A stretch of 35,271 nucleotides of DNA from contig JAFLUU010000004.1 of assembly GCA_022508585.1 (NCBI GenBank), forward strand, positions 1,484 through 36,754, given 5' to 3'. Source of the stretch: Prevotellaceae bacterium. Its GTDB lineage: Bacteria; Bacteroidota; Bacteroidia; Bacteroidales; Bacteroidaceae. Shown piece after piece: positions 30,480 to 33,661 of the stretch; within the stretch, counting starts at the first letter, position 1; every line of letters begins with the position of its first letter. The translations under genes and the position numbers were made by a program. The notes under the pieces are model-generated. The model saw nothing but the letters and a program-made list of their open reading frames with translations, was not told the origin of the DNA and did not search any database.

Positions 30480-31421
30480 ATGGCAAAGATCATAGGCACA
30501 GGCGAAACAGTAACCGACTTCATCATTCGCAACGGCAAGCCCGAAGAGATGGTGTGCGGCGGTTCGTGCTACAACTCCATTATCAGCATCGGGCGTTGCG
30601 GTATCAGCGCAGCGTTTATCGGCGAGGTCGGCGACGATAAGCTCGGGCTGCGCACCAAAGCAATGCTCAGGGAGAACAATGTCGACGACACCTTTCTGAC
30701 TATCACTCCGGGCAAAAAATCGCAGCTCTCCCTCGCCTTTCTCAACGAGCGCAACGATGCGGAATACGCCTTTTACAAAGACCATGCCGCCGACATTTTC
30801 CCAACCAAGCTCCCCACTGTCAGCAACGGCGATGTACTCCTTTACGGCTCCTACTACGCCCTCAATCCCACCATTCACGACGCACTGAGCCGCTACCTCG
30901 CCGCAGTCAAAGCCGCCGACGGCATCATCTATTACGACATCAACTTCCGCGCCAGCCACCTCGCCGACCGAGAGCGCATTATGCCCTCGCTCATAGACAA
31001 CCTCAGCAAGGCAACCATTGTGCGCGGCTCTCACGAAGATTTCCTCAATCTTTTCGATACCGACGACACCGCACAGATATACGACAAAGTCAGCGCTTAC
31101 TGCCCCAACCTCATCATCACTCGCGGCGGTACGGCTATCAATCTGCTCACGCCCTCGCTAAGAAAGGACTATGCCGTGCAGCCCACCCATGTTGTCAGCA
31201 CTGTGGGTGCCGGCGACAACTTCAATGCCGGCATCGTCTGCAGCATCATCGCCAACAAGATTGGCAAGACTGACATCGCCACGCTTACCGAGCCTCAGTG
31301 GGACGAACTCATCGCCACCGCCACCACCTTTGCGCAGGAAGTCTGCGGCACCACCGACAACTACATCAGCCAAGCCACAGGACAAAGATTTAAGTCAAGA
31401 CTGCTGCGCACGATTTCCTAA
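30480..31421 (+). CDS. PfkB (ribokinase) family carbohydrate/nucleoside kinase
   Basis: A 313-residue PfkB-fold kinase. Evidence: the N-terminal glycine motif (VCGGSCYNSIISIGRCGISA, FIGEVGDDKLG), YYDINFRASHL, and the ATP/anion-hole signature VVSTVGAGDNFNAGI carrying the catalytic Asp (about residue 247). The substrate (fructose, ribose, adenosine or other) cannot be told from sequence. It is the last gene of the operon, and its 3' end overlaps the end of the convergent higA by 32 nt. No terminator is visible in the overlap. Confidence 0.9.
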   Translation: MAKIIGTGETVTDFIIRNGKPEEMVCGGSCYNSIISIGRCGISAAFIGEVGDDKLGLRTKAMLRENNVDDTFLTITPGKKSQLSLAFLNERNDAEYAFYKDHAADIFPTKLPTVSNGDVLLYGSYYALNPTIHDALSRYLAAVKAADGIIYYDINFRASHLADRERIMPSLIDNLSKATIVRGSHEDFLNLFDTDDTAQIYDKVSAYCPNLIITRGGTAINLLTPSLRKDYAVQPTHVVSTVGAGDNFNAGIVCSIIANKIGKTDIATLTEPQWDELIATATTFAQEVCGTTDNYISQATGQRFKSRLLRTIS

Positions 31422-31695
31422 TAAACCGCAACCTTTCCAACAGTGTCGGTTTCGTGCGAGCCACAGCAATGTTATAACGATTTTGCATATTGATAAGCAG
31501 GTCGGGATTGATGCCCAAAGAAGCCTCTATCATCAACGCAAAATCCGCCGACACAGAGCGTTTGCCATTCAGTATCTCATTAAGTTGCGTATATGGCACA
31601 TCGATAAGTTCCGCAAACTTTCTTTGCGACATATTGCGACATTCCAATTCCTCTTTTAATATCTCGCCCGGGTGTGTCGGTATTCTTGTTTCCAT
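31390..31695 (-). CDS. higA: HigA-type antitoxin (XRE family)
   Basis: A 101-residue antitoxin/transcriptional repressor. I chose the ATG at 31695, giving METRIPTHPGEILKEELECR, the usual HigA start; a longer frame to 31737 overlaps the toxin gene. The helix-turn-helix is MSQRKFAELIDVPYTQLNEI then LNGKRSVSADFALMIEASLG. It lies 5 nt after the toxin gene. HigA normally neutralises HigB and represses the operon by binding a promoter palindrome, which is present here at 32053-32069. Confidence 0.88.
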   Translation of the reverse strand: METRIPTHPGEILKEELECRNMSQRKFAELIDVPYTQLNEILNGKRSVSADFALMIEASLGINPDLLINMQNRYNIAVARTKPTLLERLRFIRKSCAAVLT

Positions 31696-31700
31696 ATCTC

Positions 31701-32009
31701 CTATTGATAATGGTTTGTAATATCTGTTATAATGCAAATAGTCAGCATCTTTTCTGCCCCCTCCTCACGCAGTTTGAACTGCAAGCGGTAGTGGTAGTCT
31801 ATCCTTATGGAGTAATAACCATTGCTAAGAGTTTCAAAGTTTAGCGAATTAAAGACAAACAAGTCCTCGAGTCTTGTCGCTGCCAACAGAGTATCTATTC
31901 TCCTCTGGTATTTTTGTACTACCTGCGGCTGAAAGCGATATTTCTTGTTCTTGCATTTCCCCTTTTCGTAGAGTTCCTGCAAATAGTCTTTCTCGTATTC
32001 TACAACCAC
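31701..32009 (-). CDS. higB: HigB/RelE-type toxin
   Basis: A 102-residue RelE-superfamily protein, expected to be a ribosome-dependent mRNA endonuclease. Typical features: KYRFQPQVVQKYQRRIDTLL, LFVFNSLNFETLSNGYYSIR and the strand-loop IDYHYRLQFKL, ending ITDITNHYQ. Toxin-first order matches higBA. An upstream promoter and operator are present. Confidence 0.85.
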   Translation of the reverse strand: MVVEYEKDYLQELYEKGKCKNKKYRFQPQVVQKYQRRIDTLLAATRLEDLFVFNSLNFETLSNGYYSIRIDYHYRLQFKLREEGAEKMLTICIITDITNHYQ

Positions 32010-32160: not shown

Positions 32161-32191
32161 CTCGCAGAGGCATCGCCTCTGCGAGTTTCTT
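32161..32191 (+). terminator. hairpin with T-rich tail in the higB to ncRNA spacer
   Basis: CTCGCAGAGGC (32161-32171) pairs perfectly with GCCTCTGCGAG (32175-32185), 3-nt loop, then TTTCTT. No plus-strand gene ends just upstream (pfkB ends at 31421), so what it terminates is unclear. Confidence 0.7.
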
Positions 32192-32256: not shown

Positions 32257-32264
32257 TAACTTTG
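32257..32264 (+). promoter_or_regulatory. -7 element upstream of the structured RNA
   Basis: TAACTTTG matches the consensus; TTGTG (32232-32236) is an imperfect -33 box. A weaker candidate, TTAACTTG (32331-32338), would start transcription at the base of the RNA stem (about 32345). Confidence 0.55.
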
Positions 32265-32345
32265 CCCAATCTAATCACAAATAGCTCTGCCTATGAAATA
32301 AACGCACACAAGACATTTAGATAAAAAGCGTTAACTTGTACTATT

Positions 32346-32494
32346 GCCTTACGAAATCGCCAATTCCTACAGCAATAACACTTCAAGTTGTGCATAGTTG
32401 ATGTTCACAGCAAGCGTGGACTTTGACTTGTGCTGAAGTGTAGGTGTTTGGCGATACCTGTAAGGCGGACAATGTTAGTAGTCCGCGTTTTTTT
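32346..32494 (+). ncRNA. structured RNA with 6S-like outline and intrinsic terminator
   Basis: A long interrupted hairpin: P1 GCCTTAC (32346-32352) with GTAAGGC (32460-32466); P2 ATCGCCAA (32356-32363) with TTGGCGAT (32448-32455); an asymmetric central bubble (14 nt against 6 nt); P3 ACACTTCA (32378-32385) with TGAAGTGT (32434-32441); and a G-T-rich apical helix closing on AGCAAGC. Closing stem, central bubble and terminal stem is the layout of 6S RNA. A terminator (GCGGAC 32465-32470 with GTCCGC 32481-32486, then T7) ends it. Alternatives: a cis-regulatory leader of the gene at 32561, or a Bacteroidales RNA of another class. Confidence 0.6.
32465..32494 (+). terminator. intrinsic terminator of the structured RNA
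   Basis: Stem GCGGAC/GTCCGC (32465-32470, 32481-32486), 10-nt loop, T7 at 32488-32494. Its 5' arm shares two bases with the 3' arm of P1. Confidence 0.8.
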
Positions 32495-32560
32495 ATTGTC
32501 TCAAATCCGCCATTGGACTGCAATCAAAACACTTAATAACAACCAAATTAAAACACAACA

Positions 32561-33661
32561 ATGAAAAAAATCTTTTCAATCCTTATCGCGTTGTGCTTAG
32601 CACTGGCAATTCATGCCCAAAGCACCGACAAACAAGTCGCAACTCTACAATATGGCGACCAGACTCGCGTATTTTATGGCATCGATGCCCTCAAACAAGC
32701 ATACGATGCCGCACCGGACACTCTTGGTGTCATCACTTTGTCAAGCGGAGGCTTTCGTGGTCCAAATAATATCGAAAAATCTATCACTATATATGGTACA
32801 GGATTTGAAGACGACACAATAACAGGAATTCCCAAAACATCTGTAATAGAAACTTACAATATATATGCAAGCGGTGTACATATAGAGGGAATATACTTCG
32901 ACTCTGGTTTCGGTAATCTTACCAACAAGCCAACTTCTCTTACTATTGGTTTAGCAGGCTCTAACTCAGAAGCAAAGAAAGCAGAACCTATTCACAATCT
33001 GTCTATCGTAAAATGTAGTTTGACGAACATTTGGTTTAGAGTAGACTGCTATGATTGTGTTATACGGCAATCACATTTAAATAACTTCATCGGAAGCATA
33101 CGTACAAGGCCATATCCTTCTCTTGGTCCACAAGTGTTTATGCATAACCTCCTTGTATCAAATAATTACATACGAGGCATACGCACATCTGAAATAAACA
33201 ATTCGTTAAATAATGCAACTCGCTCTTTTTATGATTTCGACCCCACATCAACTATCTATGTTGACCATTGCATCCTGCTAAGTGATATGATGTCTGGCGA
33301 TTGGCATTACACAAACAACATTATTAAAGATTTTCACGTCAATGGCAAATGTAATATCTTCCTTGGCGACGATTTGCCAGTATTTGACAAAGACAACAAC
33401 TGGCTTAACGTAAGTCCGGAATATGTTTGGGCTGAAGAGGGAGAAGACGGAGAGTATGCAGAAAACAAGAGCTTCGCAATCAAAACGCCCGAGCTGTATC
33501 GCGCCACCGACGGCACGGAGATAGGTCTGCACGGCGGCGTGTACGCTTGGAACAAAATCCCCTCTACTCCTCGCATCACGGAGTGCATCATCGACACCAA
33601 AGACGCAGCTAACGGCACTCTCAAACTGAGCATCAAGGCCGAGGCACAGACCAAGGAGTAA
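32561..33661 (+). CDS. exported protein, probable right-handed beta-helix fold
   Basis: A 366-residue secreted protein with signal peptide KKIFSILIALCLALAIHAQ. The body has short repeating strands and Asn-rich turns (GVHIEGIYFDSGFGN, NLSIVKCSLTNIWFRVDCYD, VIRQSHLNNFIGSI, LLVSNNYIRGI, HYTNNIIKDFHVNG) typical of pectate-lyase-like beta-helices. The C-terminal phrase GTEIGLHGGVYAWNKIPSTP is common in Bacteroidetes parallel beta-helix proteins. No catalytic residues can be assigned, so enzyme activity is unproven. It lies 37 nt before the next gene. No own promoter is evident after the upstream terminator at 32494. Confidence 0.75.
   Translation: MKKIFSILIALCLALAIHAQSTDKQVATLQYGDQTRVFYGIDALKQAYDAAPDTLGVITLSSGGFRGPNNIEKSITIYGTGFEDDTITGIPKTSVIETYNIYASGVHIEGIYFDSGFGNLTNKPTSLTIGLAGSNSEAKKAEPIHNLSIVKCSLTNIWFRVDCYDCVIRQSHLNNFIGSIRTRPYPSLGPQVFMHNLLVSNNYIRGIRTSEINNSLNNATRSFYDFDPTSTIYVDHCILLSDMMSGDWHYTNNIIKDFHVNGKCNIFLGDDLPVFDKDNNWLNVSPEYVWAEEGEDGEYAENKSFAIKTPELYRATDGTEIGLHGGVYAWNKIPSTPRITECIIDTKDAANGTLKLSIKAEAQTKE

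Follow-up and report, generated by a model that had tools for sequence, protein, structure and literature searches.

The window, a stretch of 35,271 nt from a Prevotellaceae bacterium whose genome assembly is incomplete (1.98 Mb in 176 contigs), carries on its forward strand a gene for an exported protein, and this gene is preceded by a structured element that extends from about 32257 to 32520. Just upstream of this leader and divergent from it lies a HigB-like toxin and HTH antitoxin-type gene pair (31390–32009, – strand), and a perfect 11-bp palindrome with a T-rich tail (CTCGCAGAGGC/GCCTCTGCGAG, 32161–32185) lies 70 nt before the promoter of the leader and resembles a further, distinct terminator. 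The features of the window copy, with their basis, are as follows.

32257–32264, + strand: promoter –7-like element TAACTTTG (consensus TAnnTTTG), from the sequence; fits the Bacteroidota –7 element
32293–32301, + strand: minimal ORF ATG-AAA-TAA in a GCCTATG motif conserved in the close subfamily, from the sequence
32326–32337, + strand: 5′ element AAGCGTTAACTT, at the position of the family's small P0 hairpin, which is weak in this copy
32346–32352, + strand: P1 5′ strand GCCTTAC, 7 bp with GTAAGGC at 32460–32466; fold and covariation
32356–32363, + strand: P2 5′ strand ATCGCCAA, 8 bp with TTGGCGAT at 32448–32455; covariation
32378–32385, + strand: P3 5′ strand ACACTTCA, 8 bp with TGAAGTGT at 32434–32441; fold, with an equivalent stem of variable sequence in relatives
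32390–32401, + strand: P4 5′ strand, partner at 32423–32433; fold
32403–32408, + strand: P5 5′ arm of the apical hairpin, partner at 32416–32421; fold and covariation
32413–32428, + strand: segment A, the 3′ arm of P5/P4, with A′ as its alternative partner; complementarity in the window and family-wide
32434–32441, + strand: P3 3′ strand TGAAGTGT; fold
32442–32445, + strand: P6 5′ side AGGT, pairs with ACCT at 32456–32459 across P2 (pseudoknot); covariation
32448–32455, + strand: P2 3′ strand TTGGCGAT, within the P6 loop; covariation
32456–32459, + strand: P6 3′ side ACCT; covariation
32460–32466, + strand: P1 3′ strand GTAAGGC; covariation
32465–32486, + strand: local stem GCGGAC, 10-nt loop, GTCCGC, previously read as the terminator; from the sequence
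32474–32488, + strand: segment A′, complementary to A and ending at the U-tract; complementarity
32488–32494, + strand: U-tract, from the sequence
32515–32519, + strand: segment C GGACT, complementary to AGTCC at 32480–32484 of A′; from the sequence
32561–33661, + strand: downstream gene, 366-aa exported protein

We found that the 161-nt core (32340–32500) folds with a minimum free energy of –53.9 kcal/mol as compared to a mean of –38.2 kcal/mol for dinucleotide shuffles (z = –3.85; none of 200 shuffles was as good); for the full 304 nt (32257–32560), the z-score is only –1.91. A sequence-only reading of this DNA had described P1, P2 and P3 (7, 8 and 8 bp), an apical helix, the local stem and the U-tract, and all of them lie where it had placed them; it had also seen no second promoter, and indeed there is no TAnnTTTG between the U-tract and the ATG in the window copy. 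It had further proposed that CCTACA could pair with TGTAGG. This pairing exists, but it lies in a stretch that the window copy has as an insertion in comparison with its relatives, and it does not characterize the family. What the sequence-only reading overlooked were the multiple copies of the element, the NGGY/RCCN helix (P6), the pairing of the apical hairpin with the segment before the U-tract, and a segment further downstream with which the latter can pair again.

Copies across the phylum and covariation of the stems

When we used 32257–32520 as a blastn query against 61 related genomes, we found matches to the window copy in 13, several of which hold more than one copy. We then built a covariance model (R1) from 17 of the blastn-found copies. 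Among 151 genomes of the same family, 106 gave matches, at most 13 per genome; in the genome that contains the window there are about a dozen, or 7 when stricter filters are applied (E ≤ 1e-4). With a broader model (R2; E ≤ 1e-4), at least 68 of 393 genomes of the phylum were positive, in 36 of 180 genera, a count that is a lower bound. The hairpin is nearly palindromic and reverse-strand matches score 17–39 bits; therefore, we did not trust scores below about 40 bits alone. An exact degenerate core pattern matches named genomes at 118 places or more. Most of these are in Bacteroidales, with others in Flavobacterium, Tenacibaculum, Winogradskyella, Algibacter and Flagellimonas, and in single MAG contigs that bear the labels Ignavibacteria, Cloacimonadota and Lentisphaerae, which rest on metagenome bins and could reflect misbinning. 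The pattern also matches 14 viral contigs. Cultured species that carry the element include Paraprevotella clara, Leyella lascolaii and Flavobacterium segetis. A blastn search of plasmids and phages with one sequence gave no matches, as expected for such a variable sequence. We discarded a pattern match in Stutzerimonas (L108) as a chance occurrence in open, G+C-rich sequence with no such RNA. At two loci (the end of L010 and the start of L016), the 5′ halves of leaders are cut by CTGAACCCCGAAAGTTAGACA-like insertion-sequence ends or by contig breaks.

To count covariation, we aligned stems P1, P2 and P6 from 88 diverse copies and found that 97.0% of cells are paired, as compared to 74.0% in shuffled sequence and 32–52% when the strands are slid; 16 of 18 pairs show double (compensatory) changes, and the covariation score is 0.587 versus 0.144. 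In P1, 94–98% of cells are paired, every pair has double changes, and all four Watson-Crick types are used (e.g. UA 37, AU 18, CG 16, GC 16). P2 is 99% paired with double changes in 7 of 7 pairs, and model-found copies carry variants such as CUACCAA/AUGGUAG, GUGAGAA/UUCUCAC and CUUGCCG/CGGCAAG, among others; P2 seems conserved in pattern-found copies because the search pattern contains it. P5 is 97.1% paired, again with double changes in 7 of 7 pairs, and P3 and P4 are seen, with different sequences, in individual folds of relatives. The near-invariant nucleotides are GAAA before P2 and the GG/CC of P6, while the sequences of P1 and P2 vary. The RNA structure is real and highly conserved, and the covariation in homologues on which the sequence-only reading had made its structure depend is strongly present.

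P6 is a helix of 3–4 bp (NGGY/RCCN) whose GG/CC is kept in 84 of 86–87 copies and whose outer pairs change together (GGU/ACC to GGC/GCC; A-U to U-A, C-G and G-C). Because P6 flanks and crosses the 3′ strand of P2, the two would make a pseudoknot. Two of the four P6 pairs are without any compensatory change, so the alignment makes P6 a well-supported helix, not a proven one.

Upstream of the stems, TAnnTTTG stands 60–140 nt before P2 in 64 of 129 copies, as compared to 5.75 expected from shuffles. The small P0 hairpin takes different sequences in relatives (AAGC..GCTT, GAGC..GCTC, GAAG..CTTC) and has a mean hairpin score of 10.9 versus 9.3 when shuffled. ORFs of two codons or fewer are found in 27 of 80 non-core copies, where 15 are expected, and are not universal. 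In the close subfamily, a start-stop or two-codon ORF lies in the GCCTATG motif just after the promoter (L002–L017, L086, L112, L158). We rejected a conserved mini-ORF as a general leader peptide since the excess is limited to some subfamilies, and we dropped a closing helix between the 5′ element and the 3′ end, for which the excess was weak (13.9 versus 12.2), could be explained by relatedness, and was absent from the close subfamily.

A second pairing that ends at the U-tract

Directly before the U-tract lies segment A′. Its sequence complements that of segment A, which forms the 3′ arm of P5/P4 in the apical hairpin. In the alignment, one register of A:A′ is 83% paired and the next best 62%; by a formal count, 82.2% of cells are paired and at most 53% when the segments are slid. 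Outside the close subfamily the pairing is cis-specific, scoring 23.1 as compared to 16.3 with swapped partners (n = 86). Within the close subfamily, which includes the window copy, members have identical A and A′, so the swap test is uninformative there (20.9 versus 20.5) and cannot show cis-specificity. A run of T follows A′ in 127 of 132 relatives, and a strong A:A′ is predicted in 8 of 9 further loci found by covariance model. In the window copy, A:A′ comprises 14 bp (–18.3 kcal/mol).

The mean energy of A:A′ is –20.7 kcal/mol, as compared to –11.2 kcal/mol for shuffled A′; to release A costs 20.0 kcal/mol on average. These two averages balance, which is what one would expect of a bistable switch, although part of the balance is to be expected because P5 and A:A′ use segment A in common. 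Since A lies inside P1–P3, A:A′ would be a pseudoknot if P1–P3 were retained.

The terminator of the sequence-only reading survives in part. The local stem and the U-tract are present, but the stem is kept in the close subfamily alone, where it scores 10.4 versus 9.3 with swapped arms and coexists with A:A′ (GCGGAC/GTCCGC in the window). Outside the close subfamily it does no better than swapped (8.1 versus 7.4), and we therefore rejected a universal local terminator hairpin.

Beyond the U-tract, segment C is complementary to the first half of A′. The excess of A′:C pairing is found solely 14–48 nt beyond the U-tract and was absent in the four other intervals checked; the score is 11.39 versus 10.05 with swapped partners, and pairing is strong in 29% versus 15%. 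Examples covary (AGTCC/GGACT, GTTCC/GGAAC, GAGCCC/GGGCTC, GCAACC/GGTTGC) and distant copies keep the segment, which occurs in a minority of members. In the window's own genome, three paralogous genes for secreted repeat proteins (L055, L056, L058) each have their own diverged leader, with covaried P5 and A′.

Downstream genes and portability of the leader

In 114 of the 117 copies with enough downstream sequence, a co-directional ORF lies within 260 nt (within 100 nt in 104), usually 20–80 nt from the U-tract, and the RNA is thus the leader of a gene. The 85 complete downstream proteins share no common family and no one metabolic theme: they include BspA-type leucine-rich repeat proteins (LRR_5; 8), HSDR_N proteins (3) and DNA methylases (2), as well as SPFH, kinase, acyltransferase and OmpA proteins, along with many unknown proteins; signal peptides can often be recognized by eye. 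The 366-aa protein of the window matched no Pfam family; we recovered 29 homologues (27–54% identity), about a dozen of which have a leader within approximately 110 nt upstream. In three distant genomes (L217, L218, L223), the next long ORF begins roughly 230 nt after the leader, which exceeds the usual spacing, and by eye it resembles a SusC/TonB-linked transporter.

Closely similar leaders often stand before unrelated genes. Among leader pairs that are at least 85% identical, homologous proteins lie downstream in just 13 of 43, and copies that are 90–97% identical are found before unrelated genes, with homology that stops near the U-tract. On one contig (L122), two leaders separated by 3.1 kb share 96% identity over 348 nt, and the genes downstream of them are unrelated. 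In nine such pairs, homology begins 46–220 nt upstream of P2 and stops 6–64 nt after the start of the U-tract, mostly within 28 nt. These limits, read from the alignments, would be expected if the module is copied or swapped between loci, but they can also be sharpened by selection acting on the transcript. No shared terminal or flanking repeats were found in 123 upstream and 91 downstream flanks, and on this ground we ruled out an integron cassette or a transposon end.

A candidate transcription attenuator and its alternatives

Two of the three defining features of a transcription attenuator are seen in this family: a 5′ leader position, co-directional with a gene, and mutually exclusive conserved pairings (P5 versus A:A′), one of which abuts a U-tract. 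Condition-dependent termination and readthrough, which we infer, would be the third, and the best-supported reading is that the leader works like an attenuator. We give a probability of roughly 0.6 to a cis-acting leader RNA of about 220–230 nt that is a portable bistable transcription attenuator. Transcription would start directly after TAnnTTTG, and the RNA would fold into the P1–P5 hairpin, held by the small NGGY/RCCN pseudoknot. Once A′ and the U-tract emerge, the 5′ arm of P5 and A′ would be rivals for segment A. Pairing of A with A′ would place a duplex immediately against the U-tract and make the polymerase terminate, an effect that the local stem could also have in the close subfamily. 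If the P1–P5 hairpin holds, the polymerase would read through, and in a subset of members C may capture A′ in the readthrough RNA, fixing the open state. The trigger would more likely be a protein, a ribosome or a factor acting on RNA polymerase than a metabolite. Several points count against an attenuator: P1–P5 forms before A′, so that A′ must displace a stable hairpin; in the close subfamily, swapping partners cannot show that A:A′ is cis-specific; C occurs in a minority of copies; the downstream genes have no function in common; and we know of neither a conserved ligand pocket nor a cognate regulator. Known attenuators and expression platforms of riboswitches, of the trp and pT181 types, have the same promoter-proximal leader, mutually exclusive pairings and U-tract before a coding sequence. 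In contrast, here a large RNA with a pseudoknot contains the terminator 5′ arm within its apical hairpin, and A:A′ consequently crosses P1–P3; there is an extra partner, C, beyond the U-tract; and the module stands before unrelated genes.

If the element were instead an independent small RNA (6S-like or of another type) that carries its own promoter and terminator, and the gene were expressed separately or by leaky readthrough, this would account for the promoter and the U-tract, and also for homology between copies before unrelated genes that spans roughly the transcript, from promoter region to U-tract. We consider such an RNA unlikely, since the gene stands at a narrow distance in 114 of 117 copies, no second promoter is seen, the sequence beyond the U-tract contains a conserved partner of A′, and genomes have many diverged copies. 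6S RNA (RF00013) and 6S-Flavo (RF01685) are likewise long imperfect hairpins with internal loops in Bacteroidota; the leader differs from them in its copy number (7 or more in the window's own genome), its position, its conserved motifs and the absence of an Rfam match. Using Rfam 15 at gathering and permissive thresholds, we found no family that matches the element in any set tried; the sequence-only reading had suggested the 6S and Bacteroidales-1 models, and neither matched over the element. RF01685 had no match in the own genome, RF01693 (Bacteroidales-1) is absent from the window and from that genome, and neither RF01693 nor RF01705 (Flavo-1) matched any element examined. The proposal of a 6S-like free ncRNA thus fails, both on the covariance models and because 6S RNA is free, usually single-copy and independent of a gene, whereas here there are several copies per genome and nearly every one precedes a co-directional gene. 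One locus in a same-genus genome (G008:C22:38300–38411, L214) gives a sub-threshold 6S-Flavo match (42.5 bits; cut-off 85), possibly a divergent 6S RNA of the window's clade. The riboswitch-like leader with readthrough control, also proposed earlier, holds in its architecture, with conserved, mutually exclusive pairings that end at the U-tract shortly before the ATG; a metabolite aptamer is not supported. A metabolite riboswitch would use the P1/P2/P6/P3 junction as aptamer and A, A′ and C as expression platform, and the conserved GAAA before P2, the pseudoknot and the exclusive pairings all suit it; we judge it improbable because invariant nucleotides are few, the stem sequences of P1 and P2 change freely, and the downstream genes are heterogeneous, with no common pathway. 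Regulons of the c-di-GMP riboswitch (GEMM) similarly have many leader copies per genome before diverse, often exported, genes; the GEMM aptamer is strongly conserved, whereas here most stem sequence is free.

A translational switch, in which the P2 3′ strand, exposed in the P6 loop, pairs with a copy of the P2 5′ strand adjoining the start codon, draws on TCGCCA (P2 5′ strand) between the U-tract and the ATG in 7 of 112 copies, as compared to 0.4 expected, and on repeats such as CTCGTTAAAAATCGCCATTATG or GTAGAAATCGCCAAACAATG at the ATG in some copies. As the general explanation it is very unlikely, given that a small minority has TCGCCA, that the window copy has it weakly (AAATCCGCCATT), and that A:A′ and the U-tract are left unexplained. 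The copies in which TCGCCA, sometimes with the end of P1, adjoins the start codon (L099, L125, L143, L153, L179, L200, L203) may represent a translational form of the switch. A mobile element or recombination site at the DNA level, attC-like or MITE-like and functional as a folded strand, would likewise fit stems of freely varying sequence, an association with accessory genes, the presence of copies in viral contigs and near-identical copies before unrelated genes. We consider this very unlikely: the flanks lack shared terminal or flanking repeats, homology ends at transcript features and not at inverted repeats, and placement is always promoter-proximal and co-directional.

Weinberg et al. 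(2010; PMC2864571) listed Bacteroidales-1 and Flavo-1, which are likewise structured RNA candidates from Bacteroidota; the leader family matches neither model. An open-literature search, which included the core sequence and the texts of Weinberg et al. (2010) and Fremin and Bhatt (2021; PMC8040213) as far as these were accessible, returned no description of the motif; a numbered, undescribed candidate in the supplementary tables of Fremin and Bhatt (2021) may be the same RNA. The family is previously uncatalogued, and absence from the papers searched is no proof of novelty.

This new covarying family, with its model and boundaries, holds independently of the mechanism: it is a large, phylum-wide class of leader RNA that is absent from current Rfam. 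A single genome can have as many as a dozen copies, and the genes behind them include some for surface proteins, restriction-modification and phage functions. The A, A′ and C pairings give direct mutational predictions. More tentatively, promoter and bistable pseudoknotted attenuator together may form a portable RNA gate that spreads as a module among unrelated accessory genes in Bacteroidota and phages, placing surface-protein, restriction-modification and phage genes under one common signal. Should the leader gate expression, a large part of the accessory genome in gut Bacteroidota would be under the control of a single RNA mechanism.
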